Source: Algoriphagus lutimaris (GTDB taxonomy: Bacteria > Bacteroidota > Bacteroidia > Cytophagales > Cyclobacteriaceae). From it: DNA of 64,000 nt. The stretch is taken from positions 454,384-518,383 of the forward strand of contig NZ_JAFIDJ010000002.1 in NCBI RefSeq assembly GCF_017051705.1, given 5' to 3'. The position numbers and the translations under genes were made by a program. This document shows positions 27,965 through 42,906 of the stretch, in pieces (position 1 is the stretch's first letter; each line of letters starts with the position of its first letter). The notes under the pieces were generated by a model. The model searched no databases. It saw only the letters and a list, made by a program, of their open reading frames with translations, and was not told the origin of the DNA.

Positions 27965-30889
27965 TTATGCCAATAATGCAGCAATATCATCTTGATCCAA
28001 GCTCTTCATAAAGCTTTCTTCTGTTCCGATTAACTCTCCTGCAAGCGCCAGTTTTCTATTCTGTAAAGCCATAATTTTTTCCTCCACAGAATTACGACTG
28101 ATAAACTTGTAAATAATCACCTTATTTTCTTGGCCAATTCTATGAGCTCGATCGATGGCCTGAGCTTCTACTGCTGGGTTCCACCATGGGTCAAGTAAAA
28201 ATACATATTCTGCTTTCGTCAAGTTCAATCCTACACCACCTGCCTTCAAAGAGATTAAAAACACCTTAATATCTTCTTGCTCTTGAAAGGCCTCTACCTG
28301 AGCCTGCCGATCTTTGGTTGAACCATCCAAGTAAGAAAATGGAATGTGCTCTTTCTCGAGATATTCTTTCACGATCGCCAAATGCCTCACAAACTGACTA
28401 AATACCAATACTTTATGACCTTCCGAGATAGTAGACTGAAGCATATACGTAATATCTTCCAACTTACCGGATTCTCCTTCATAATCATCTCTAACCAATT
28501 TTGGGTGATTGGCAATTTGTCTTAATTGGGTAAGACCTCGTAGTAAGGTGAATTGCTGTGAATTTCTTCCTGTTGCTTTTATATCTGAAATAATCTTTTC
28601 TCTATAATAGCTCTTTACCTCCTCATAAACCGATTCCTGCTCTGCAGTCATAGCGGAATATTTCACGTTGGTGATCTTTTCAGGTAAATCCGTAGCCACT
28701 TGGGATTTTAGCCTTCTCATGATAAAAGGCTTAATCATTGAATGAAGCTTGGTAGCCTTATTTTTATCATTTTGCTTCTCAATAGGCAAAAGGAATTGCT
28801 TTTTGAAGGAATGCTGCGTTCCAAGCAGCCCAGGATTCACAAAATTCATTTGCGACCACAGGTCCATGGTACCATTCTCCACTGGAGTACCGGTAAGAAT
28901 CAATCGCTGTTTACTTTTCAGTTGATTTACCGCAGAAGCAATATTACTATTGGGATTCTTGATCGCTTGTGATTCGTCTAGTATGACATAGTTGAAAAAG
29001 AAGTCCTTGAGGATATCTATATCCAACCTGATGATTCCATACGATGTCAGCACAAGATCATATTCACTGAATCGATAGGGATCTTTAATACGATTTGTGC
29101 CGGTATAAACCAGAATCTTTAAATCTGGAGTGAATTTTCTTGCCTCTAATTCCCAGTTGTAAATCAAAGAAGTAGGCATTACCAATAACGAAGTTTGTCC
29201 TTCATTCACCTCTGCCTCATGAGCCAACAAGGCTAAAGTTTGGACCGTTTTACCTAAACCCATGTCATCCGCCAGACATCCACCAAACTTAAATTCATTA
29301 AGAAACCTAAGCCAATTATAGCCGGCATGCTGGTAAGGTCTTAAGGTTCCTGCAAACTTCTTAGGAACTTCATATTCCTCTATGGTCTCAAAATCACGAA
29401 GCTGCTCCAACTTCCTACTCAAGGTTAATTGAACAAGGTTTCCTGACTCCAAGGTCTTTGCTAAAGCCAAATGATGTTTCCTCATCATCATTTGGCCGGT
29501 CCCACCTTTATCTTCTAAAAATGAAAAGAGTTCCGAATAATTGACAAACCATGAAGCTGGAATCACCGCATATTCACCATTGGGAAGTTCAAATTCAGTT
29601 TTCCCTTGAACTAATAGTTTCCTCAATTTGGCAAATGGCACCAGATATATTCCAAACTTGATCTGGGCATTTACATCAAACCAATCGATGTTCTCGTTTA
29701 CTTCGATCGAGATTTGAGCTCGACCAATATGATACGTTTTCCCCTTTGGACTTTCCTTTTGCTCAAATTTAAACCCTTCTATTTCCAGCCTATCCAAATG
29801 CTCACTGATCCAGTCAAAAGCCAGGGACTTGTTCATAGCCCTTTTGCCATGGTCAAAGTCCAGCCCTCTTTCCTCCAAGTACTTTACAATCGCTCTTTCC
29901 TTTTCCTTACTTCTAATTACTTTATGGAAAATGTAATGCTCTCCATTTTCTTCTAATCGTACCGAATTATTGATGGATTCTGCGGAGTCAAACACATAGT
30001 CTCCATATTTATATTTCAGTGAAAACACCAATTGATCCTCTTGACTTTTTTCTACTTCTTCCCCAAAGAGGTCGATTCCAGAATTCCCTGGAAGGTCAGC
30101 AATACAAAGAATAGGCTGTGGATTGCCTCTTTCCACCTTGATATCAAACCCTTCCGCATAAACATCAAAAACTGAAAGTAACTGGGTAATAAATTTCCTG
30201 TAATATTCTCTTTCGAAGCGCTTATCAATGACAATAAACTTCTTATTTAAGAAAGGCTTAAGCTTTTTGCCGTCTATGCCCTTTTCAAAGCTGAACAGCA
30301 TTTGGTTCACTACCAACCAAGCAGGGTTGTGGCAAACTAAATAGCCATGTCTATACTGCCATTCCAGCTTTGCTCCTTTGTACTTAATCGTTGGAAAGTA
30401 ATGAGTATTTTCTTCGTTTTTTCTAAAGTGGAATAACACCGTCGCTTTCTGATCCGTCACCTCGATTTCCTTCCAAATCGGATTCCCGTCGTTCCCCATT
30501 TCAAAGAATCTCTTACCTTTCAACAAGGGAAATATCTTAGATCTAGTATGCTCTAAATTTTCCTCAATCAGCTTTTGAATCGTTTCATTCCCGGAATTCT
30601 CATCATAAATTTTACGTAGAAATTCCTTTGGTTTCAAGTTTCTTTTGTTGTGCTTTCTAACCACCACTTCTTGCTGCATGCTGTCCATTAATTTGATCAG
30701 CTCAAAATCTGCCTTATCCAATTTGGATGAAAACTCATGGGCATTGACAGAACTGATATTTTGATGCGCCAAAGAAAGCCTTCCTTGTTCATCAAGTTGG
30801 ATTACAAAAGAGTCAAGTAATAAGCCGAGGTATTCATGACTAAAAAGGGAATAAATAATCTCAAAGGGTTTCTCTGGATCAACTATCAT
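27965..30889 (-). CDS. SNF2/RapA-family DEAD-box helicase
   Basis: A 974-residue SWI/SNF-type ATPase. The C-terminal half carries LADDMGLGKTVQTLALL (Walker A, around residue 543), VILDESQAIKNP (DEAD-box variant DESQ), LTGTPVENGTMDLW, KVLVFSQFVRHLAIV and RAHRIGQENKV (motif VI). The ~530-residue N-terminal part has no recognised catalytic domain, and is typical of bacterial SNF2 proteins with an associated domain. It probably remodels nucleoprotein or RNA polymerase on DNA. I chose the ATG at 30889 (MIVDPEKPF), since the longer form has a poorly conserved Cys-rich extension that overlaps an inverted repeat. Confidence 0.94.
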   Translation of the reverse strand: MIVDPEKPFEIIYSLFSHEYLGLLLDSFVIQLDEQGRLSLAHQNISSVNAHEFSSKLDKADFELIKLMDSMQQEVVVRKHNKRNLKPKEFLRKIYDENSGNETIQKLIEENLEHTRSKIFPLLKGKRFFEMGNDGNPIWKEIEVTDQKATVLFHFRKNEENTHYFPTIKYKGAKLEWQYRHGYLVCHNPAWLVVNQMLFSFEKGIDGKKLKPFLNKKFIVIDKRFEREYYRKFITQLLSVFDVYAEGFDIKVERGNPQPILCIADLPGNSGIDLFGEEVEKSQEDQLVFSLKYKYGDYVFDSAESINNSVRLEENGEHYIFHKVIRSKEKERAIVKYLEERGLDFDHGKRAMNKSLAFDWISEHLDRLEIEGFKFEQKESPKGKTYHIGRAQISIEVNENIDWFDVNAQIKFGIYLVPFAKLRKLLVQGKTEFELPNGEYAVIPASWFVNYSELFSFLEDKGGTGQMMMRKHHLALAKTLESGNLVQLTLSRKLEQLRDFETIEEYEVPKKFAGTLRPYQHAGYNWLRFLNEFKFGGCLADDMGLGKTVQTLALLAHEAEVNEGQTSLLVMPTSLIYNWELEARKFTPDLKILVYTGTNRIKDPYRFSEYDLVLTSYGIIRLDIDILKDFFFNYVILDESQAIKNPNSNIASAVNQLKSKQRLILTGTPVENGTMDLWSQMNFVNPGLLGTQHSFKKQFLLPIEKQNDKNKATKLHSMIKPFIMRRLKSQVATDLPEKITNVKYSAMTAEQESVYEEVKSYYREKIISDIKATGRNSQQFTLLRGLTQLRQIANHPKLVRDDYEGESGKLEDITYMLQSTISEGHKVLVFSQFVRHLAIVKEYLEKEHIPFSYLDGSTKDRQAQVEAFQEQEDIKVFLISLKAGGVGLNLTKAEYVFLLDPWWNPAVEAQAIDRAHRIGQENKVIIYKFISRNSVEEKIMALQNRKLALAGELIGTEESFMKSLDQDDIAALLA

Positions 30890-30917
30890 AATCAGGGTCT
30901 TAGTATAACAGCACGGT

Positions 30918-30945
30918 CTTTTATTAAAGTAAGATTTAATAAAAG
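30918..30945. repeat. 11-bp perfect inverted repeat in the SNF2 leader
   Basis: CTTTTATTAAA, 6 bases, TTTAATAAAAG, about 30-56 bases before the chosen SNF2 ATG. A second 7-bp repeat, ATTCATC and GATGAAT, lies at 30962-30984. Either may be an operator or a leader hairpin. Confidence 0.55.
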
Positions 30946-31060
30946 CAACCAAAAATGTAGTATTCATCACTTTTTGCGATGAATGCAGCTTGAAAATTAC
31001 ATAAAAATTGATCAGAATGGAGCCTCAACAGCCCTTTTTTCCTAAAAAAGTGATAAAATA

Positions 31061-31100
31061 AAGAAAATGGGCTCCTTCTAAATTCAAAAGGAGCCCATTT
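31061..31100 (-). terminator. Intrinsic terminator of lspA
   Basis: AAATGGGCTCCTT and AAGGAGCCCATTT, a 13-bp stem with 10-base loop, T-rich on both sides. It lies directly at the lspA stop codon and ends the ileS-lspA transcript. Confidence 0.88.
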
Positions 31101-31102
31101 TT

Positions 31103-31744
31103 TTATTCACTTTCTACAGAAGAATTTATTTCTTCTATTTCTTCCTTTTTAGGTTCTTCTTCCTTGTGCTCTGGAAAAAATCTCCCTTGGAATATCAAGA
31201 TTATTGCCACTCCAATAAAAATAGAAGCGTCGGCAACATTAAATATAGGCCATAGAGCAGTATAATCGCCACCCCAGATGGGAACCCATTCTGGAATATA
31301 TCCTTCCCAAATGTCGAAATAGAACATATCTACTACCTGCCCATGAAACCAAGGTGAAGGAGCATTATAAGGCGCATTGTTTAACCAAACCCCATAAAAT
31401 ATGGAGTCTACCAAGTTTCCTATGGCTCCTCCCAATATCATGGCAATACATACAATAAATACTGGATGACTTTTTTGCTTGATAATATGGTATAGATAGT
31501 ATCCTATTCCAGCCATTGCTACCAAACGAAAGGAAGTCAAGATCAATTTACCATATTCAGATCCGATTTCCATCCCGAAAGCCATTCCAGGATTAGTGGT
31601 ATAATGAAGCTTAAACCAATCACCGAAAATCGGGATTTGACCCGGCGAACCAAAATCCATTTCGAAATGGACCAGCATTTTCACTGCCTGATCAATTAAG
31701 ATCACCAACAATGCAATGCCAAAATATTTAATGTATCTATTCAT
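31103..31744 (-). CDS. lspA: Lipoprotein signal peptidase (signal peptidase II)
   Basis: Inner-membrane aspartyl protease that cleaves the signal peptide of prolipoproteins before the lipidated Cys. Catalytic Asp residues are expected at 113 (GNLVDS) and 172 (FNVADASI); NPGMAFG is also conserved. Four transmembrane helices. At 213 residues it is longer than the usual ~160 because of a ~45-residue loop between the two Asp motifs, and a Glu/Lys-rich tail; both are usual in Bacteroidota homologues. The window holds several of its likely substrates (DUF4270, GH43, M14). It lies 16 bases after ileS, so one operon. Confidence 0.95.
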   Translation of the reverse strand: MNRYIKYFGIALLVILIDQAVKMLVHFEMDFGSPGQIPIFGDWFKLHYTTNPGMAFGMEIGSEYGKLILTSFRLVAMAGIGYYLYHIIKQKSHPVFIVCIAMILGGAIGNLVDSIFYGVWLNNAPYNAPSPWFHGQVVDMFYFDIWEGYIPEWVPIWGGDYTALWPIFNVADASIFIGVAIILIFQGRFFPEHKEEEPKKEEIEEINSSVESE

Positions 31745-31760
31745 TCTTAATCGATTGACC

Positions 31761-34700
31761 TCAGGCCTTTTCTACTTTTACTGCAATTTCAAAATCATCC
31801 ATCTCCAAGGTAATCGCTTCCTGAAGGTCCTTTTCCAGAGTAAGACCTAATGCCTGAGTTTCAGATTGAATATAATCCCCAAAATTCTCTGTAGAAGCCA
31901 TTATCAAATCAGAAGAAGGCTCAATGAAAATTTTGATTTTATCCTGAACTTCCAGTCCCATATCTTTTCTTAGGTTTTGGATTCTGTTCACCAAATCTCT
32001 CGCCACTCCTTCTTGCTTCAATTCTTCCGAGATGGTCACATCTAAGGCTACGGTAACTCCCATATCAGAGGCAACGGACCAGCCAGGAATATCTTGCGAA
32101 GTGATCAATACTTCTTCTAACAATAATTCCAAAGCTTCTCCATCCACATCTATTGAAATTTTTCCATCACGCTCGATGGTAGCAATTTCCCCTTGTCCCC
32201 ATGAATTGATGGCAGCCACAACAAATCTCATTTTAGGGCCTAGCTTTTTACCTAATACAGGAAGATTTGGCTTCACGCTTTTTACAAGTATGCCGGAAGC
32301 ATCGTCAATGAATTCAATTTCTTTGATATTCACTTCAGATTTAATCAACTCTTCTACATGTTGGATTTGTTCCTTTGTTTTCTCTTTAAGAATAGGAATC
32401 AATATTCGCTGTAAAGGCTGCCGCACTTTTACTTTTTCCTTCTTTCTCAAGGAATGAACCAAAGATGAGATGGTCTGTGCCAACTCCATGCTTTCTTCCA
32501 GATCCTTATTGATCAAATTGGAATCCGCATTATTCCAATCTGTTAAGTGAACGGATTCTTTACCTTCTTTGCTGGACTTAGTCAAATTCTGGTACATCCA
32601 ATCAGAATAGAATGGAGAGAAAGATGACATCAGCTGCGTAAGGGTAAGTAAACATTCATACAAGGTTTCATAAGCTGCTTGCTTATCTGTATTCATGTCT
32701 CCTCTCCAGAATCTCTTTCTTGCTAATCTTACATACCAATTGGATAATTGATCTACTGTAAAATTCATGATCGCTCGGGTAGCTTTGGTAGCATCGTAAT
32801 TATCCATAGCTTCTTCCACCTCAACAATCAAAGACTGTAGTTTGGAAACGATCCATTGATCTAGTTCGGCTCGTTCACTGACAGGAATAAGTTTGGATGG
32901 GTCATACACAAATGCATCCAAATTGGCATAGAGAGCAAAGAAATTATAAGTGTTTTGAAGGGTTCCAAAGAACCTTCTTTGTACCTCCCCAACCCCATCT
33001 AAGTTGAACTTCAGGTTGTCCCATGGGTTGGCGTTACTCAACATGTACCAGCGAACTGCATCTGGCCCATACTCTTTTAATGTCTTGAACGGGTCCACTG
33101 CATTGCCCAATCTCTTGGACATTTTGTTTCCGTTTTTGTCAAGAACCAAACCGTTTGCAATTACATTTTTAAATGCAACGCTATCAAACAACATCACCGC
33201 GATTGCATGCAAGGTAAAGAACCAACCTCTAGTCTGGTCAACTCCTTCAGCAATGTAATCAGCTGGATAATTCGCTTTAAACACATCTTGGTTCTCAAAT
33301 GGATAGTGCCACTGTGCATAAGGCATGGCTCCAGAGTCAAACCAAACATCGATCAAGTCTGGCTCTCTGAACATTTTTTCACCCTTTTCTGATACCAGTA
33401 CCACATCATCTACATAGGGTCTGTGTAGGTCTAGTTCTTTACCTTCATAAGGAGATTTCTCCATGAATCCTTTCGTCACAGACTTTTCTATTTCAGTCTG
33501 TAAATCGGCGATAGACCCAATGCATTTCTCTTCAGTTCCATCCTCTGTTCTCCAAATAGGCAATGGAGTTCCCCAGAATCTTGATCTACTCAAGTTCCAG
33601 TCTACCAAATTCTCTAACCAGTTACCAAAACGTCCAGTCCCTGTTGCTTCAGGCTTCCAATTGATGGTCTTGTTTAACTCAACCAATCGATCTTTATAAG
33701 CCGTGGTTTTAATAAACCAGCTTTCTAATGGGTAGTACAATACAGGCTTATCCGTTCTCCAGCAGTGAGGATAGCTATGTTCATACTTTTCTACTTTGAA
33801 GGCTTTATTTTCATTCTTCAAAATAATGGAAATGATGACATCCGTATTTTTAAAATCGGCAGCATTCTCATCATCTTCCGTATAATTTTTCACATAGAAA
33901 TCATTCACCCCATATTCTTTATGGGCTGTGATTCCATGCTCTTTCATTTTTGCAGATAGATATTCTCCTACCACAGAAATGAATTTTCCTTGGCGATCTA
34001 CAATCGGCAATTCATTTCCTTGCTCATCTTTCACAAAAACACCAGGCACATCATTTTGAACCAACGTCCTAAAGTCATCCGCACCAAAAGCCTTTGCCAA
34101 ATGGACAATACCTGTACCATCTTCAGTAGTCACATAGTCTCCTGAAACGACAGTAAATGCAGGTGCGGGAAGCGCTAAGGCTTCAATTGGAAAAAGTTGT
34201 TCATATTCCCAACCTAGCATATCCTTTCCTTTGAACTCAGCTACGATCTCAAAAGGAATTAATTTATCTCCTGCTTTGTAATCTTCAATTTTAAGTTCAG
34301 CGGCCTTTGGATTCAGGTATGCATTCATACGCGCCTTTGCCAGAATCACTTGACAATGTTCATGGGTGTATGGGTTGAAAGTTTTCACTTTCACATAATC
34401 CAAGTTCTCGCCAATGGCCAAGGCAGAGTTGGAAGGCAAAGTCCAAGGTGTAGTAGTCCAAGCAAGAATAAACGTGTTCTCCTCTCCCTTTAATTTAAAC
34501 TGTGCAGTAATGGAAGTATCCTTCACATCTTTATAGGTTCCTGGTTGGTTCAACTCGTGTGAACTCAATCCGGTCCCTGCAGCAGGAGAAAAAGGTTGAA
34601 TGGTATACCCTTTATACAACAATCCTTTATCATAAAACTTCTTCAGCAAGTGCCAAAGAGTTTCAATGTAATTGGAATCAAAAGTGATATAAGGATCATC

Positions 34701-35135
34701 CAAATCTACCCAGTAGCCAATTTTTTCAGTCAATTCATCCCATTCATTTTTGAATCGCATGACTGTCTCCTTACACTTCTTGTTGTATTCTTCGACAGAT
34801 ATTTTCTTACCGATATCTTCTTTTGTAATACCAAGCTCCTTTTCAACTTGAAGTTCTACCGGAAGACCATGGGTATCCCAGCCACCTTTTCTTTTTACCT
34901 GAAACCCTTTTAAGGTTTTGTATCGGCAAAAAATATCTTTTAGGGTTCTCGCCATGACATGGTGGATCCCAGGAGTACCATTGGCAGATGGTGGCCCTTC
35001 AAAAAAAGTAAAGGTTTCTGCACCTTCACGGTTTGAAATAGATTTTTCAAAAATCTTATGGTCTTTCCAGTACTGAAGTACGTCTTCTCCTATAGCAGGG
35101 TAATCGACTTGTTTGAACTCTTTATATGTTTTCAC
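31761..35135 (-). CDS. ileS: Isoleucyl-tRNA synthetase, type 2 (IleRS2), with GIHH signature
   Basis: Charges tRNA-Ile with isoleucine and edits valine. Domains: Rossmann catalytic core split by the CP1 editing domain (AWTTTPWTLPSNSALAIG), KMSKR at residues 671-675 in NGNKMSKRLGN, then an anticodon-binding domain and a long C-terminal domain without zinc cysteines, as in eukaryote-like type 2 enzymes. The class I signature HxGH reads GIHH (residues 56-59, bases 34959-34970). Length 1124 residues from the GTG at 35135, which has AAAGGA five bases upstream; a TTG at 35204 is the alternative. No second ileS is in the window. Confidence 0.96.
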   Translation of the reverse strand: MKTYKEFKQVDYPAIGEDVLQYWKDHKIFEKSISNREGAETFTFFEGPPSANGTPGIHHVMARTLKDIFCRYKTLKGFQVKRKGGWDTHGLPVELQVEKELGITKEDIGKKISVEEYNKKCKETVMRFKNEWDELTEKIGYWVDLDDPYITFDSNYIETLWHLLKKFYDKGLLYKGYTIQPFSPAAGTGLSSHELNQPGTYKDVKDTSITAQFKLKGEENTFILAWTTTPWTLPSNSALAIGENLDYVKVKTFNPYTHEHCQVILAKARMNAYLNPKAAELKIEDYKAGDKLIPFEIVAEFKGKDMLGWEYEQLFPIEALALPAPAFTVVSGDYVTTEDGTGIVHLAKAFGADDFRTLVQNDVPGVFVKDEQGNELPIVDRQGKFISVVGEYLSAKMKEHGITAHKEYGVNDFYVKNYTEDDENAADFKNTDVIISIILKNENKAFKVEKYEHSYPHCWRTDKPVLYYPLESWFIKTTAYKDRLVELNKTINWKPEATGTGRFGNWLENLVDWNLSRSRFWGTPLPIWRTEDGTEEKCIGSIADLQTEIEKSVTKGFMEKSPYEGKELDLHRPYVDDVVLVSEKGEKMFREPDLIDVWFDSGAMPYAQWHYPFENQDVFKANYPADYIAEGVDQTRGWFFTLHAIAVMLFDSVAFKNVIANGLVLDKNGNKMSKRLGNAVDPFKTLKEYGPDAVRWYMLSNANPWDNLKFNLDGVGEVQRRFFGTLQNTYNFFALYANLDAFVYDPSKLIPVSERAELDQWIVSKLQSLIVEVEEAMDNYDATKATRAIMNFTVDQLSNWYVRLARKRFWRGDMNTDKQAAYETLYECLLTLTQLMSSFSPFYSDWMYQNLTKSSKEGKESVHLTDWNNADSNLINKDLEESMELAQTISSLVHSLRKKEKVKVRQPLQRILIPILKEKTKEQIQHVEELIKSEVNIKEIEFIDDASGILVKSVKPNLPVLGKKLGPKMRFVVAAINSWGQGEIATIERDGKISIDVDGEALELLLEEVLITSQDIPGWSVASDMGVTVALDVTISEELKQEGVARDLVNRIQNLRKDMGLEVQDKIKIFIEPSSDLIMASTENFGDYIQSETQALGLTLEKDLQEAITLEMDDFEIAVKVEKA

Positions 35136-35232
35136 AATATCCTTTCTTGTAAGCAAGTAGGTGATTTGATTCCAATTATTGCTTTTTAAGCTCCTAACAG
35201 TCAAAATTGTTCGGACTCATTATTATTGGAAA

Positions 35233-35250
35233 GAAAACCAAAAGGTTTTC
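35233..35250 (-). ncRNA. Leader hairpin before ileS
   Basis: GAAAACC, AAAA, GGTTTTC on the plus strand; on the minus strand it is a 7-bp hairpin with a UUUU loop in the presumed ileS leader. A short reading frame (MSPNNFDC) follows it. No T-box features are seen, so an attenuator role is only a guess. Confidence 0.3.
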
Positions 35251-35270
35251 ATGCTCCTCAAAAGCAGGCA

Positions 35271-35278
35271 CAAAGATA
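35271..35278 (-). promoter_or_regulatory. Bacteroidota -7 box of ileS
   Basis: TATCTTTG on the minus strand. It would give a leader of about 130 bases to the GTG at 35135, or about 60 to the TTG at 35204. Confidence 0.45.
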
Positions 35279-35534
35279 AGAGAATTACCCCTTTTTATGT
35301 GAGTTGAAGGGAAAAAATGGCGGGATTGGGTAACTACTGGCAAATTTTTGAAAACAAATGAGCAAGAGTAAAGGTCCTCAGGAAATTAAAAGCCTTTTTA
35401 GCGCCTTTCCAATTTGGATTATTTTCTAGGCCATTTACTATAAGCAGGCATTTTTATCCAGAAATTTACACAAGAGACTATATGCTCTGAAATGGAGTTT
35501 GTAAATTTCAAGAAATTTCAACCCCCTATTGTTA

Positions 35535-36560
35535 ATGAAAACCAAAATCCCTCTTTATATCTTTTTGGCAATCTTGGCTTTTTCATGTGCCAGCCCAAAA
35601 GAAGAGACTACAGAAATTTTTTCAGGCAACCCTATCTCTACCGGTTGGTATGCTGATCCTGAAGGAATTGTTTTTGGGGACGAATATTGGATTTACCCTA
35701 CCTTTTCGGCGGGCTATACAGACCAGCTTCACTTTGATGCGTTTTCTTCCAAGGATTTAATAACCTGGGTAAAACATGAAAATATCTTAGATACCTCAGC
35801 CATAAAATGGGCAAAACAAGCCATGTGGGCCCCGGCTGCCATAGAAAAGGATGGCAAATACTACTTATTCTTTTCTGCCAATGATGTTCAAAGACCGAGC
35901 AGGGCAGGGTGGGATCCTGACAATGACATCAACCATTATGGTGGCATCGGGATAGCAGTGGCTGATTCACCTGCTGGACCATTCAAAGATTATCTAGGAA
36001 AACCCTTAATAGATGATTTTTACAATGATGCTCAACCGATTGATCAATTTGTTTTTAAAGATACTGACGGACAATACTACATGTTTTACGGAGGCTGGAG
36101 TCATTGTAATATTGGTAAATTAAATGATGACTTTACCGGATTTGAGCCTTGGGAAGATGGAGAGTTGTTTCACGAGATCACTCCTGAAGGGTATGTAGAA
36201 GGACCTTTCATGTTTATCCGAAATGGTAAATATTATTTTATGTGGTCAGAAGGTGGCTGGACCAACGACAGTTATAAAGTTGCTTATGCCATGTCAGACA
36301 AGGTAACTGGACCCTATGAACGAATTGGAACCATTTTGGAATCTGATACTACCGTAGCCACGGGTGCTGGTCACAATTCTGTTATTCAAAAACCAAATTC
36401 AGATGACTGGTATATGGTATACCATAGAAGACCAATCCCTAATCAGGGTAGAGATCACCGAGTAACCTGTGTGGATGTGATGGAATTCAATCAAGATGGT
36501 ACCATTAAGCCCATTAAAATGACATTTGAAGGAGTAGCTGCCAACCCTATTATTGAATAA
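35535..36560 (+). CDS. Glycoside hydrolase family 43-like lipoprotein
   Basis: Five-bladed propeller glycosidase, exported as a lipoprotein: signal peptide with lipobox LAFSC (residues ~15-19). The catalytic triad is visible: Asp general base in GWYADPEG, an Asp in QPIDQFVF, and Glu general acid in GYVEGPFMF. Other GH43 marks are MWAPAAIEKDGKYYLFFSA and GPY/VYHRR blade ends. 341 residues. GH43 enzymes mostly cut arabinan, xylan or galactan side chains; the subfamily cannot be fixed here. It stands alone, with no SusC/SusD pair beside it. Confidence 0.9.
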   Translation: MKTKIPLYIFLAILAFSCASPKEETTEIFSGNPISTGWYADPEGIVFGDEYWIYPTFSAGYTDQLHFDAFSSKDLITWVKHENILDTSAIKWAKQAMWAPAAIEKDGKYYLFFSANDVQRPSRAGWDPDNDINHYGGIGIAVADSPAGPFKDYLGKPLIDDFYNDAQPIDQFVFKDTDGQYYMFYGGWSHCNIGKLNDDFTGFEPWEDGELFHEITPEGYVEGPFMFIRNGKYYFMWSEGGWTNDSYKVAYAMSDKVTGPYERIGTILESDTTVATGAGHNSVIQKPNSDDWYMVYHRRPIPNQGRDHRVTCVDVMEFNQDGTIKPIKMTFEGVAANPIIE

Positions 36561-36990
36561 GAGAAAAGTTTCTTTATTTAAAATTAAGCCTTTTGTAATT
36601 GAAAGAAACAAGAAAGGATAAGATGAAAACGAACCGCTATCAGGTAGCGGTTTTTTTATGATATATTAGATTCTTTACTCTCAGAATCTTATGAAACTTA
36701 ATTCTTCTTACTTCGGGGACATATTTGATGATGTCGTATTGAAATAAAAGAGGAATGAAAAAAGTATAGGATCAAGTAGTAGAGAAAAAAATAGCCATGT
36801 CATCTTAAAAAGACTTGATTCCCTGAATTTTACCATTACATTCTTTCTATAAATAATCAACTGGAAGCTTTACCAAACTTGTCTTTCTAAGGCTATTTGT
36901 CTAATTTCCAGCCTTATACCGCCCAAAATCACCTTTTTAAATGGTTGGAGTTACCAACCAGTTCAAGCTTCATTCTTTAACCTTTAGCAT
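36561..36990. other. 430-base intergenic region between GH43 and mscS
   Basis: Contains the GH43 terminator and, at 36942-36960, an inverted repeat TGGTTGG-N5-CCAACCA 30 bases before the MscS ATG. The 280 bases between are A/T-rich without a recognised gene. Confidence 0.6.
36632..36657 (+). terminator. Intrinsic terminator after GH43
   Basis: AACCGCTA, 5 bases, TAGCGGTT followed by five more Ts, 72 bases past the GH43 stop. Confidence 0.88.
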
Positions 36991-37908
36991 ATGAAAATTT
37001 ATTCTCGCCTAGTTATCCCATTGTTGGTAACGATCATTCTTGCATTATTGAAACTTTATTTGGGGGGATTATCTAAAGATTGGGAGGGATGGATGGCTTA
37101 TTTACCCTCCATCAATACCATATTGATTATTAGTGGATTTACCTGGTGCTTATTGGTAGGGATGCAAATAGTAAAGTCCATGTTTTTAAAACAATATGAC
37201 ATCTCTCAAGAGGACAACCTCCGGGCAAGAAAAGTCTATACACAGATCAATATCCTTGTGAAAATTGCCAATTTTATCATCATTCTGTTCTCCATTGGTT
37301 TAGTTCTATTATCTTTTGAATCTGTCAGAAAAGTAGGGGTTGGATTTTTTGCTTCAGCCGGGGTAGCTGGAATCATCATCGGTTTTTCTGCACAAAAAGC
37401 TATTGGAACCTTGATTGCCGGAATTCAAATTGCCTTTACTCAACCGTTTAGATTGGAAGATGCAGTGGTAGTAGAAGGTGAATGGGGATGGATCGAAGAA
37501 ATCAATTTGAATTACATCGTCGTGAGAATATGGGACCTAAGAAGACTGGTACTTCCTACAACCTATTTCTTGGAAACCCCTTTCCAAAACTGGACAAGAA
37601 CTTCAGGTGATTTATTAGGCTCTGTTTTTCTTTATACGGATTATACGATTCCTTTTAACGAACTCAGAAAAGAATTGGACCGCATTCTGGAAACAACAGA
37701 TCTTTGGGATAAGAAAGTAAAAGTATTACAAGTCAGCGATACGAAAGAACATACCGTAGAAACAAGGATTTTGGTAAGCGCTAAAAATTCACCGATTGCC
37801 TGGGATTTAAGAGTATATGTTCGGGAAAAAATGATTGAATTCATTCAGAAAAATTATCCTGAATGCCTACCAAAAACTCGTGTCTTAATGGAAAAGGAAA
37901 AGAGCTAA
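36991..37908 (+). CDS. Mechanosensitive ion channel, MscS family
   Basis: Opens on membrane tension to release osmolytes in hypo-osmotic shock. Hydrophobic helices at about residues 7-25, 43-62 and 87-108, then the pore helix TM3 around 115-140 with VGVGFFASAGVAGIIIGFSAQKAIG split in Gly/Ala-rich style. The cytoplasmic beta domain follows with PFRLEDAVVVEGEWGWIEEINLNYIVVR and the VLPTTYFLETPFQNWTR loop. 305 residues. Two or three N-terminal helices are present. No partner gene. Confidence 0.92.
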   Translation: MKIYSRLVIPLLVTIILALLKLYLGGLSKDWEGWMAYLPSINTILIISGFTWCLLVGMQIVKSMFLKQYDISQEDNLRARKVYTQINILVKIANFIIILFSIGLVLLSFESVRKVGVGFFASAGVAGIIIGFSAQKAIGTLIAGIQIAFTQPFRLEDAVVVEGEWGWIEEINLNYIVVRIWDLRRLVLPTTYFLETPFQNWTRTSGDLLGSVFLYTDYTIPFNELRKELDRILETTDLWDKKVKVLQVSDTKEHTVETRILVSAKNSPIAWDLRVYVREKMIEFIQKNYPECLPKTRVLMEKEKS

Positions 37909-38365: not shown

Positions 38366-39391
38366 TTAATATTTAAAGCAAGGCATAGAGGACTTTCTGC
38401 CAGCTCCGGAAGCTTTCCCCCAAAGGAAACTATATCGCAGGGAAATTTCATGTGCTCCTCCCGTATTGGCATTCCCAAGGGAAGAGATAGTAAAATCATG
38501 GCTATATCCCACATCTAAACCTCCGCCTAATGACATTCCTACCAGAGCAATGATGGATTCATGATTAGGCTGTTCGGAATTAGAAACCGGAATTCCTCTA
38601 TACCAAACCCCCAAAACCAAAGGTTGAATATTGAGCTGGGCTCCCATATCCAATTGGGTGAAAGGTTTTTGGTTTTTGTAATTAAAAGCCAATGTCAACT
38701 CCTTAGTTCCAGACTTTTGATTGTAAAATTCGGTAGAAGAACCACCAGAAAGATCAAATTTCACCCCGCCATGAGCTGAAACCTTAAGTGGTAACTTACT
38801 ATTTTGGCCATCAACAAAGGATAAATTAGGTTGGGTAACATGCGCAGTCGATACACCAAACCAAACCTTCTCATTGTTATAAAGGAAACCAAAACTGTAA
38901 TCCATAAATTGTCTGCGAACATCTTGGCCTAGGTTTTCTCCACTAAAATCCCCAATTGATCCAGTTTGATCATCAATTTGACTCCCGAAGATCAGATCTC
39001 CAAAATAAGCATCTCTATCCATGAAGCTAACTTGCCCCCCAATCCTCAAAAAAGAACGGAATCCTAGCCTCATCCTATAAGAGTAAACGGCTCCAATTTC
39101 AGACACACTGAGGTTGGCCATACTTTGCTGGGATTTATTAAAAATTAACCCAATCCCACTATTAATATTAAACATGTAATGATCCACATAAGCAGAATAG
39201 GAAGTGAAGGATTGATCTAATCCAGGCCATTGATTCCTATAGTTTACCCCAATTCTAGTCATTTCGGAGGATCCGGCCATCGCTGGATTTAAGTAGAGAG
39301 GAGCTGCATAAAATTGGGAATACTGTACATCCTGAGCTTGAGAAGTCAGACTCAGCATTCCTAAAATAATTAATGTAAAAATTCTTTTCAT
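38366..39391 (-). CDS. PorP/SprF family type IX secretion protein
   Basis: Outer-membrane beta-barrel of the PorP/SprF family, partner of T9SS cargo. Signal peptide MKRIFTLIILGMLSLTSQAQ, then the conserved start DVQYSQFYAAPLYLNPAMAGS, the block RIGVNYRNQWPGLDQSFTSYSAY, and a barrel with alternating polar and aromatic strands. It ends SSMPCFKY. 341 residues. It is 3 bases after the SprB-repeat gene, so the two are one operon; PorP/SprF proteins act in secretion or attachment of such adhesins. The paralogue at 41838 is closely similar. Confidence 0.93.
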   Translation of the reverse strand: MKRIFTLIILGMLSLTSQAQDVQYSQFYAAPLYLNPAMAGSSEMTRIGVNYRNQWPGLDQSFTSYSAYVDHYMFNINSGIGLIFNKSQQSMANLSVSEIGAVYSYRMRLGFRSFLRIGGQVSFMDRDAYFGDLIFGSQIDDQTGSIGDFSGENLGQDVRRQFMDYSFGFLYNNEKVWFGVSTAHVTQPNLSFVDGQNSKLPLKVSAHGGVKFDLSGGSSTEFYNQKSGTKELTLAFNYKNQKPFTQLDMGAQLNIQPLVLGVWYRGIPVSNSEQPNHESIIALVGMSLGGGLDVGYSHDFTISSLGNANTGGAHEISLRYSFLWGKASGAGRKSSMPCFKY

Positions 39392-39394
39392 AAC

Positions 39395-41461
39395 CTATCT
39401 AATAAGGGTGATTCCGCCGCTGCGACTTTGATTTTCGCCAGCAGTATTGGTGTAGGTAATTTTATACAAGTAGTTACCGGCAGGTAAAGCCTGCCCCTTA
39501 TATGTACCATCCCAACCTTGAGATTCCTGGTTGGTGGTCATAAACATTCTTTCTCCCCAGGTATTAAATACCTCCATAGAGAAATTTGATACGGCCTTCA
39601 TTTTGGGGATAAACACGTCATTAAGACCGTCTCCATTTGGAGTAAATGCATTTGGAATGACAATCATTTCCTCAGGCACATTTACTTGAACAGTATTCTT
39701 TTCAATGCTTGAACAGCCATAGATATCGAAGGCCGTAAGCGTTACTTCAAATGATCCAGCTTTTTCAAATATGTGTATAGGATCTTTTTCAGATGATTTA
39801 TTTCCATCTCCGAAATGCCATTCCCAAGCAATGAATTCCTCAGAGATTTCACTTTCAAAAATTATTTCCTCATCTACTTGCACTTCTGGCTCACTGGAAA
39901 TTTCCAGCTTTCTAAACTGGAAATTCAATCTGCTGCCCTGAGTATTCAAATTAGGGTAATCTACTTTGGCTTCAGTAATCACTGAACAACCTGTAGCATC
40001 AATTACTTTAACTTTTAGGGTTCCAGTTTTGAAATAATTGATCTCCCTGGCATTGGTATTTCCATTATTCCATTCGATGGTGTAAGGTTCTACTCCACCC
40101 TCTATTGAGACCCAAGCGACTCCTGTGAAAGATCCCTCTTCACAATCCACATCAAGCATACTTTCAATTCTCGCGTTGATATTCCCAGAACCCTTTACCT
40201 CGAAAGATTTAGTGATTTCACAGCCTGAAGCATCTTTAACAGAAATTGAATAGGTTCCTGGAGCCAAATCTTCTCTTTTGGAAAGGCCTTTGACACCATC
40301 TGACCACTCTATAGAATAATCCCCAGAAGCCCCGATAACTTCTAGCTCTACTAAGCCATCTTCACCTCCAGCACAAGAAGTAGGTTGATTATTCGCAATA
40401 ACCAGATCCAGATTAGAGGAATTAGAGAGATTGAACTGCTTCTCAATAATACATCCAGAGGCATCAGAGACAAGCACAGAATAATTACCGGAAGAAAGGT
40501 TGGTGGCTTTTGCAGAATTTTGTCCATTACTCCACTGGTAAGTATATGGGGCTTGTCCTCCAATTACCCCCAATTCAATTTCTCCATTTGCATTTCCATC
40601 GCAATAAGGGGAAAGGATCGACTCAGTTAAAGTCATCACTGCCGGGCTTTTCACTTCGTAATTCGCTGTAAATGAACAGCCGGTTTGATCTTTGATAGTT
40701 ACTGCGTAATTACCCGCAGAGAGATTATCGACATTTTGGGTAGTAGCTCCGTTGCTCCAGCTATATATATAAGGAGCTTGCCCTCCACTGATGGTAAGCT
40801 TGATTGCCCCATCATCAATTCCACTGCAAGACAAATCCTTAGTGGTTTCTTGTACTGAAATACCTTCTGATTCAGATTTTACTTCAAAAGAAACGGTTAC
40901 ATCACAATTATATATATCAGCAACTTTCACTGAATAAGTACCAGGCTTTAGACCATTCACTTCCCATTGGTCCTCCACCCCATTGCTCCAAGTAACCTTG
41001 TAAGGCTCCCCTCTTCCTACCTTAACACTAAGCTTAGCCGAACCATCAGCTCCCGACCCACAAGAAGCTGGAATAATTTCAATAGGATTTAAAATCAATG
41101 GGTAAGGAGGCTGAACCACTATATTCTCTTTATGGACAGCACCTTTTGAATCAGTAATTTCAACAGTATAGGTTCCTGCGTATAAATTGGTACGGTCTTT
41201 GGTTGTTTCAAGTGTATTCCACTTATAGGTATAAGGAGCCTGGCCCCCTGTGACCGTTAAAATAATGTGGCCTTTCTCTGAATGAGAGCAAAGTGCAAGT
41301 TTTCCTGAAACAGCAACCTGTATATCAGAAGCACCCATTGTTCGGGCTTGAACCAAATCAGGGTCTTTCAAAGATGATTGCGCATAAATGGAATTGATAT
41401 ATCCCATCATCATTAGAGGGAGTAATATCATTAAGCCATATGTAGAAAATGCCTTCTTCAT
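39395..41461 (-). CDS. SprB-repeat protein with PKD domain and T9SS type B sorting domain
   Basis: A 688-residue exported protein. After the signal peptide come six ~75-residue SprB repeats (about residues 45-500) with the pattern DGxIxLxVxGGxAPYTYxWSNG..NLxxGxYxVxVxDxxGC. A PKD domain with WEWHFGDGNKSSEKDP follows, and the last ~90 residues, from IPNAFTPNGDGLNDVF to GGITLIR, are the gliding-motility-associated type B C-terminal domain. This is an adhesin-like T9SS cargo. Start is the ATG at 41461, because the upstream TTG adds an Arg-rich leader before the signal peptide. Operon with the PorP/SprF gene that follows. Confidence 0.93.
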   Translation of the reverse strand: MKKAFSTYGLMILLPLMMMGYINSIYAQSSLKDPDLVQARTMGASDIQVAVSGKLALCSHSEKGHIILTVTGGQAPYTYKWNTLETTKDRTNLYAGTYTVEITDSKGAVHKENIVVQPPYPLILNPIEIIPASCGSGADGSAKLSVKVGRGEPYKVTWSNGVEDQWEVNGLKPGTYSVKVADIYNCDVTVSFEVKSESEGISVQETTKDLSCSGIDDGAIKLTISGGQAPYIYSWSNGATTQNVDNLSAGNYAVTIKDQTGCSFTANYEVKSPAVMTLTESILSPYCDGNANGEIELGVIGGQAPYTYQWSNGQNSAKATNLSSGNYSVLVSDASGCIIEKQFNLSNSSNLDLVIANNQPTSCAGGEDGLVELEVIGASGDYSIEWSDGVKGLSKREDLAPGTYSISVKDASGCEITKSFEVKGSGNINARIESMLDVDCEEGSFTGVAWVSIEGGVEPYTIEWNNGNTNAREINYFKTGTLKVKVIDATGCSVITEAKVDYPNLNTQGSRLNFQFRKLEISSEPEVQVDEEIIFESEISEEFIAWEWHFGDGNKSSEKDPIHIFEKAGSFEVTLTAFDIYGCSSIEKNTVQVNVPEEMIVIPNAFTPNGDGLNDVFIPKMKAVSNFSMEVFNTWGERMFMTTNQESQGWDGTYKGQALPAGNYLYKITYTNTAGENQSRSGGITLIR

Positions 41462-41750
41462 CTTTTTTCGCCTGGTCCTCAAGCGCCTGATTTTCAATTG
41501 GGTAAAATTGCCTTATATAATAGGGTTTTTGTATTTTGTTTTTAAGAATAATATTTTTTGCAAATCGTATACAACAAAATGATATTCTTTCTTTTAGTGT
41601 TTATCTTAAAATAAGTGCAGAAAAATTCTAATATCCAAAGATTGGATGCACGTCAAAAGGGAATAGTTCAAACTTGAAAAAGTATCATTTTTATTAAAAA
41701 ATTACCATAATCAAAAAAAGTATGAAATGATGCTTTTTTTTGATCATAAA

Positions 41751-41776
41751 AGACAAAAGCCTGAAAATCAGGCTTT
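41751..41776 (-). terminator. Intrinsic terminator downstream of porP2
   Basis: AAAGCCTGA, 3 bases, TCAGGCTTT; on the minus strand TGTCTTTT follows. It separates the porP2 transcript from the SprB-repeat operon. Confidence 0.75.
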
Positions 41777-41784
41777 GAATATTA

Positions 41785-41815
41785 TTTTTAAAAAAAATCG
41801 ATTTTTTTTTAAAAA
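41785..41815. repeat. 31-base A/T palindrome after porP2
   Basis: A perfect 20-base palindrome centred on TCGA (41790-41809) flanked by T5 and A5 with one extra T. Located 22 bases past the porP2 stop. Confidence 0.45.
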
Positions 41816-41837
41816 GCTTATGAAATGTTGCTCAATG

Positions 41838-42890
41838 CTAGTATTTAAAGCAAGGAATGACTCTTCCTCTTTGGTTTCTGGATTTTGGATCCCCCCACAA
41901 AAAAGTATACCTGATGGATACTTCATGCGCACCTCCACTATTTTTTTGTCCTAATTTTGACACAGTCACATCATAGGAATATCCAATATCCAACCCGGAA
42001 GGAAGCGACACGCCAACTAACCCAATGACGGCCTCATTATTAGGCAAAGAATTTTTGGTTGGAAGTCCTCTATACCAAAGCCCCAACACCAAAGGTTCAA
42101 GAAAAACTTGGGCACCTAAATCAAGTTGATTAAAAGGATCTTGTTGTTTATAGTTGAAGGCAAAGGAAATAGATCTTTCGGAATAAGCATGAGTAAAATA
42201 ATCTCGCCCCCCATGTCCTAAATCAAACTTCACACCTCCTTGAGCAGAAATCTTCATTGGGAGTTTGGAAATTTGCCCTTCCATAAAAGACCTATTAGGT
42301 TCTGACAAGTGATGTGCTGAAACTCCTAACCAATACTTATTGGTATAAAATAACCCTCCGACTGCATAGTCCATAAAACTATACTTGGAATCCAGCGGTA
42401 CTCCATCCAATTCATCTGTAATTCCACCTATGGTTCCATTTATGATATCAATTTGACTTCCAAATACCAAGTCTGAGAAAAAAGCATTCCGCTGCATAAA
42501 GCTGACTTGCCCTCCAACTCGGAAGAATAAATCCTGACTTATTTGTAAACGGTAGGCATAGGATAAACCAATTTCATTGGTTGAAAGCTGCGCCATACTT
42601 TCTTGGCTTCCATTAAAAATCAATCCTATACCCGAATTGTAATCCATAATATAGTGATCAATGTATGCAGAATAGGAATTAAAGCTCTGGTCTAATCCAG
42701 GCCATTGATTTCTGTAATTGACACCGATCCGTGTGAGCTCACTTGCTCCGGTAAGGGCAGGATTTAAATAAATAGGGGCTGCGTAAAACTGGGAGTACTG
42801 GGTATCTTGGGCATAGATATCCAACTGTACAAAAAATTGTACCATCAAAAACATACATACGCCTAAGATCTTCCTCAACATAATCTTCAT
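41838..42890 (-). CDS. PorP/SprF family type IX secretion protein (paralogue)
   Basis: Second PorP/SprF barrel, 350 residues. It has a signal peptide to about residue 25, then DTQYSQFYAAPIYLNPALTGAS, the block TRIGVNYRNQWPGLDQSFNSYSAY, and the same order of motifs as the first copy, with MQRNAFFSDLVFGSQIDI against MDRDAYFGDLIFGSQID. It ends GRVIPCFKY, nearly the same as the first. The ATG at 42890 is preferred over a GTG one codon upstream. It has its own promoter box and terminator, so it is a separate unit from the SprB-repeat operon. Confidence 0.93.
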   Translation of the reverse strand: MKIMLRKILGVCMFLMVQFFVQLDIYAQDTQYSQFYAAPIYLNPALTGASELTRIGVNYRNQWPGLDQSFNSYSAYIDHYIMDYNSGIGLIFNGSQESMAQLSTNEIGLSYAYRLQISQDLFFRVGGQVSFMQRNAFFSDLVFGSQIDIINGTIGGITDELDGVPLDSKYSFMDYAVGGLFYTNKYWLGVSAHHLSEPNRSFMEGQISKLPMKISAQGGVKFDLGHGGRDYFTHAYSERSISFAFNYKQQDPFNQLDLGAQVFLEPLVLGLWYRGLPTKNSLPNNEAVIGLVGVSLPSGLDIGYSYDVTVSKLGQKNSGGAHEVSIRYTFLWGDPKSRNQRGRVIPCFKY

Positions 42891-42906
42891 CACGATCCCT
42901 ATACGG

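Follow-up and report, generated by a model that had tools for sequence, protein, structure and literature searches.

The ileS2 Locus

The window, that is, the whole stretch of 64,000 nucleotides of Algoriphagus lutimaris DNA analysed here, carries on its minus strand (31761..35135) the gene ileS2, which encodes a type 2 isoleucyl-tRNA synthetase (IleRS2) of 1124 aa and which was recognised from its open reading frame and from matches to TIGR00392, PF00133, PF08264, and PF19302 (DUF5915). The likely start is the GTG at 35135, ahead of which GAAAGGA, read by eye, is a possible ribosome-binding sequence; the first TTG in the open frame is at 35204, and the stop codon ends at 31761. Residue 1 in the numbering used below is the ATT that precedes the likely GTG start, and subtracting 1 gives the numbering from the GTG.

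The next gene downstream, lspA (31103..31744, minus strand; PF01252, 125.3 bits), encodes signal peptidase II and is separated from ileS by 16 bp on the same strand. An lspA match was found in at least 45 of the 58 ileS loci of relatives; the true number may be higher, since one or more of these loci (L031 among them) came without flanks. Divergent from ileS is a gene for a family 43 glycoside hydrolase (35529-36560), for which tblastn gave no match in the same 58 loci, most of them with around 1.5 kb of flank. A search of positions 30000-37000 against Rfam at the gathering threshold gave 0 matches and thus showed neither a T-box nor any other leader RNA that Rfam lists. Further along (38366-42893), two PorP/SprF genes lie on either side of a gene whose 700-aa product contains SprB repeats, PKD domains, and the type IX secretion signal domain CHU_C; the cluster is of the type IX secretion or gliding type. 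PorP/SprF, SprB, and CHU_C domains are typical of Bacteroidota.

The product of ileS2 is a full-length IleRS2, as the first-pass annotation of this DNA had proposed. Its TIGR00392 (ileS) score of 970.4 bits exceeds the cut-off of 621.4, and it has the catalytic domain PF00133, the anticodon-binding domain PF08264, and, at residues 929-1124, the C-terminal domain PF19302/DUF5915 (192.8 bits), which we take to be a mark of type 2 IleRS. There are no cysteines in the last 200 residues and no CxxC in the whole protein, which bears out the earlier description of a C-terminal part without zinc cysteines. The best phmmer matches among solved structures are the type 2 entries of P. megaterium (8C8W, 843.5 bits; 8C8U, 839.3 bits), the wild type and its GVHH variant together spanning 837.5-843.5 bits, versus 283.3 and 295.6 bits for IleRS1, the higher value being that of the wild-type IleRS1 8C9E; the window protein is thus closer to type 2, and a 752-residue stretch of the wild-type P. 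megaterium IleRS2 is 46% identical to it. IleRS1, as represented by 1ffy/1qu2 of S. aureus and 8C9E of P. megaterium, has its function and the class I catalytic fold in common with the window enzyme but, unlike it, has the canonical HXGH and a C-terminal zinc site (PMC10485003). An excerpt of PMC4861432 gives HYPFE as a mark of eukaryotic and eukaryote-like IleRS; the window protein contains it within AQWHYPFEN, and it is not universal, since it occurs in 154 of the 179 loci compared below.

The second class I signature, to be expected in some form in a G/AXHH IleRS2, is present as KMSKR at residues 672-676 (33111..33125, minus strand; to obtain a coordinate, three times (residue - 1) is subtracted from 35138). 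The first-pass annotation had regarded KMSKR as a type 2 sequence. It is not a type 2 marker because the Arg is nearly confined to the window's class, where it was found in 56/58 loci, compared with 1/41 in the other classes of the phylum and 0/80 in the contig scan described below; the last residue in the 121 loci outside the window's class (Arg in 1/121) is mostly Ser or His.

The Exchanged Class I Signature

At the position of the class I signature HXGH, the window enzyme has GIHH. The minus-strand codons GGG ATC CAC CAT at 34970..34959 translate as G-I-H-H, exactly as first read, and correspond to residues G57-I58-H59-H60 (34959..34970). The phmmer alignments place these residues opposite the HVGH of the wild-type P. 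megaterium IleRS2 (8C8U and 8C8V) and opposite the H-V-G-H of 1ile, which we take to be the IleRS2 of T. thermophilus. The P. megaterium IleRS2 alignments are gap-free from residue 20 to past the motif, and the 1ile alignment already from residue 5, so the proposal that GIHH occupies the HxGH position holds. These canonical enzymes are of the same type as the window enzyme but have HVGH; in 8C8W, GVHH stands in the columns of the window GIHH, but this variant is engineered and its wild type has HVGH. The alignments cover five PDB matches, among which a natural GXHH enzyme is absent, and the P. megaterium entries (8C8U, 8C8V, 8C8W, 8C9E) are labelled according to the data statement of PMC10485003. 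The same paper locates the HXGH signature at the tip of helix alpha1.

An alignment that put a normal HxGH elsewhere would have spoken against this reading, and the 1125-residue frame is throughout free of HxGH in which x is I, L, V, M, Y, or F. With Gly in first place, His in third, and the fourth His retained (G57, H59, and H60), the motif is of the G/AXHH form. The exchange of the first and third signature residues in the window IleRS is real; chance and sequencing error are excluded because every one of the 99 phylum loci that were read, the window's own included, has GXHH in these columns.

Distribution of GXHH

The window IleRS had matches in 59 of the 60 genomes of the family sample, with a best match per genome of at least 832 bits, and in 118 of the 118 genomes of the phylum sample, with at least 639 bits (E up to 1e-50 in both); the window's own genome is included in both samples, and the single family genome lacking a match (G002) is 94% complete and in 540 contigs. 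Solved wild-type IleRS1 scores around 280-300 bits against the window enzyme, and all of the best matches per genome are well above this. The motif was read in 99 phylum loci from distinct genomes, comprising the window's own, 29 from the family sample, 29 from the phylum sample, and 40 fetched in addition, a count that leaves out 77 further matched genomes (29 of the family sample and 48 of the phylum sample). GXHH was found in 99/99, as GIHH in 89 and as GVHH in 10, with no reversion to HXGH inside the phylum among the loci read.

A contig scan confirmed at least 591 stretches, using as its query a seven-row alignment whose first row, the canonical P. megaterium IleRS2, makes the scan lean to canonical relatives; among the best 80, which were kept and which by their titles are mostly from Bacillota, 74 have HXGH and 6 have GXHH. 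The phylum and scan loci together make up the comparison set of 179, with GXHH in 105 and HXGH in 74. In a tree built from 83 of them (47 GXHH and 36 HXGH) after removal of the motif columns, a single branch with a support of 97 parts GXHH from HXGH, which amounts to one motif change; the sampling covers the window's phylum and the scan loci, but neither Actinomycetota nor Deinococcota, two other phyla with G/AXHH. The presence of GXHH throughout the phylum loci, against 6/80 in the scan, makes the motif look both old and fixed in the window's lineage.

Other Lineage-Specific Positions

Residue counts over the 179 loci set further positions apart. Residue 51 (34986..34988, minus strand) is Ser in 58/58 loci of the window's class and Thr in the 121/121 others; it presumably corresponds to the Tyr59 position of E. 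coli. At the latter position, eukaryotic and eukaryote-like enzymes have Phe or Thr, according to an excerpt of PMC4861432. Residue 664 (33147-33149, minus strand), at the position of P. megaterium His582 as counted on the phmmer alignment, is Leu in 98/105 GXHH loci and in 12/74 HXGH loci, a difference that is confounded by clade. Residue 349 (34092-34094, minus strand), in the editing-domain motif HLAKAFGADD, is usually Pro (143/146 loci outside the family); residue counts gave Lys in 27/33 family loci, and the Asp pair 354/355 is retained in 33/33 of these.

Residues 51, 664, and 349 distinguish the class or the family of the window and are leads only. When the residues that differ with the motif are ranked, the 30 best-ranked sites span residue 7 to residue 1089; motif-linked sites are inseparable from shared ancestry because they are spread over the whole protein and because there is one motif change on the tree.

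Past the editing motif, the stretch at 33834-33980 (residues 387-435) is a lineage-specific insertion, which comprises 49 residues in 19/33 family loci and 30-33 in the other 14, and only 16-20 in 80/80 scan loci.

Published G/AXHH Enzymes and Mupirocin

The swapped motif has been in print since 2023, and the window IleRS is an ordinary member of the published kind. Brkic et al. (PMC10485003) found natural G/AXHH in 86 of 379 IleRS sequences, all 86 being of type 2, and tied it to a millimolar Ki for mupirocin, which confirms the association of GxHH with very high mupirocin resistance put forward in the first-pass annotation. They showed that the natural ALHH IleRS2 of D. radiodurans (DrIleRS2) has a mupirocin Ki of 6.6 mM, that this falls 823-fold when its motif is made canonical, and that the reverse change, made in a further two IleRS2, raises the Ki by around 200-fold, a figure that their discussion puts at around 430-fold for one of the two enzymes. 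They also class the S. griseus enzyme (SgIleRS2) as G/AXHH, and an excerpt of PMC4861432 gives its mupirocin Ki as about 10 mM. IleRS is entered as a mupirocin target in a table row of PMC10835994. The D. radiodurans and S. griseus enzymes are, like that of the window, type 2 enzymes with the first and third signature residues exchanged, but they come from other lineages, and the window's class instead has Ser51 and mostly KMSKR. The authors of PMC10485003 report that the motif was gained at least twice, and they found no natural GXHH in IleRS1. The main text of their paper contains no words beginning with Bacteroid, Flavobacter, or Cytophag, though its tree may include such sequences, and the papers listed by literature searches on mupirocin and the IleRS of Bacteroidetes include, judged by title, no dedicated study. 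The only addition made here to published knowledge is the spread of GIHH/GVHH through the window's phylum.

A mechanism for the window enzyme can be proposed by homology. In the published GVHH structure, the nitrogen of the third His occupies the place of the first-His nitrogen of HXGH (PMC10485003), and H59, the third residue of GIHH, would likewise replace the missing first His in the stabilisation of the transition state. Such a takeover would be possible because, in IleRS2, the tip of helix alpha1 is displaced from the adenine. Modelling in the same paper has the third His of GXHH clash with mupirocin, and the cell is predicted to be very highly and intrinsically resistant to mupirocin at the level of the target because the bulky H59 should clash with the drug. 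The size of the effect in the window enzyme could differ, in that the natural examples for which it has been measured are from Deinococcus and Streptomyces and in that Ser51, Leu664, and Arg676 are unlike the corresponding residues of the P. megaterium IleRS2.

Alternative Explanations

As the cause of GXHH, the authors of PMC10485003 favour selection by natural mupirocin. Another explanation is that the GXHH of this lineage is a neutral alternative to the usual catalytic geometry, ancient and fixed along with other changes in the active site, with resistance as a by-product rather than as the selective cause. Its occurrence in every phylum locus read, the single well-supported motif change, and nearby parallel differences such as Leu664 are consistent with this explanation; however, the best-ranked parallel differences extend over almost the whole protein and cannot be told apart from shared ancestry, and the published argument is for selection. 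Neutrality is possible but somewhat doubtful, and it would alter the evolutionary cause while leaving the mechanism unchanged.

A bolder idea, which we think unlikely, is that GXHH in the phylum is not a resistance add-on but one element of an alternative active site that has become fixed. In combination with the Ser of the class at what is presumably the E. coli Tyr59 position (synthetic-site editing control), the Leu at the His582 position, the mostly KMSKR second signature, and the replacement in the family of a conserved Pro by mostly Lys in the editing-domain motif HxAPAxGxDD, it could result in an enzyme that balances catalysis, proofreading, and drug resistance in its own distinct way.

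The window ileS might also be a secondary copy acquired for resistance, in addition to a normal ileS at another site of the genome. There are precedents for this in plasmid-borne ileS2 and in those Bacillaceae that carry both ileS genes (PMC10485003), and the A. lutimaris genome (4.72 Mb) is in 61 contigs, so that a small gap is possible. However, it is 99.98% complete, and the search for a second ileS that the first-pass annotation had proposed found none: a PF00133 search together with a protein search gave no second IleRS in the 61 contigs, the PF00133 matches being the window ileS and three other genes. From their sequences, we take these three to encode ValRS, MetRS, and LeuRS, and they retain HXGH (as HMGH, HIGH, and HVGH, respectively). 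The adjacent lspA, matched in most of the relatives' loci, and the strong matches throughout the family and phylum genomes, far above the scores of IleRS1, also argue against an acquired copy, which is very improbable. The window ileS is most likely the housekeeping copy, as had been suggested from its position next to lspA, because it is the sole IleRS found in the genome and because lspA lies directly downstream. Finally, a sequencing or assembly error, or a misalignment with a normal HXGH elsewhere, is practically inconceivable and was rejected, given the absence of a canonical motif elsewhere in the frame and the fact that 98 loci from genomes other than the window's own also have GXHH.

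Significance

The window gene is almost certainly a housekeeping ileS2 of the published non-canonical G/AXHH form, with the role proposed for H59 and the mupirocin hyper-resistance predicted from it. Among enzyme signatures, HXGH is one of the most conserved, and the window gene is a further instance of an exception to it that is already in print; a GXHH IleRS2 met with in genome scans is consequently not to be flagged as new. Within the window's phylum, this exception appears to be the rule in the loci read, and a phylum-wide GXHH would predict intrinsic, target-level resistance to mupirocin throughout the phylum.
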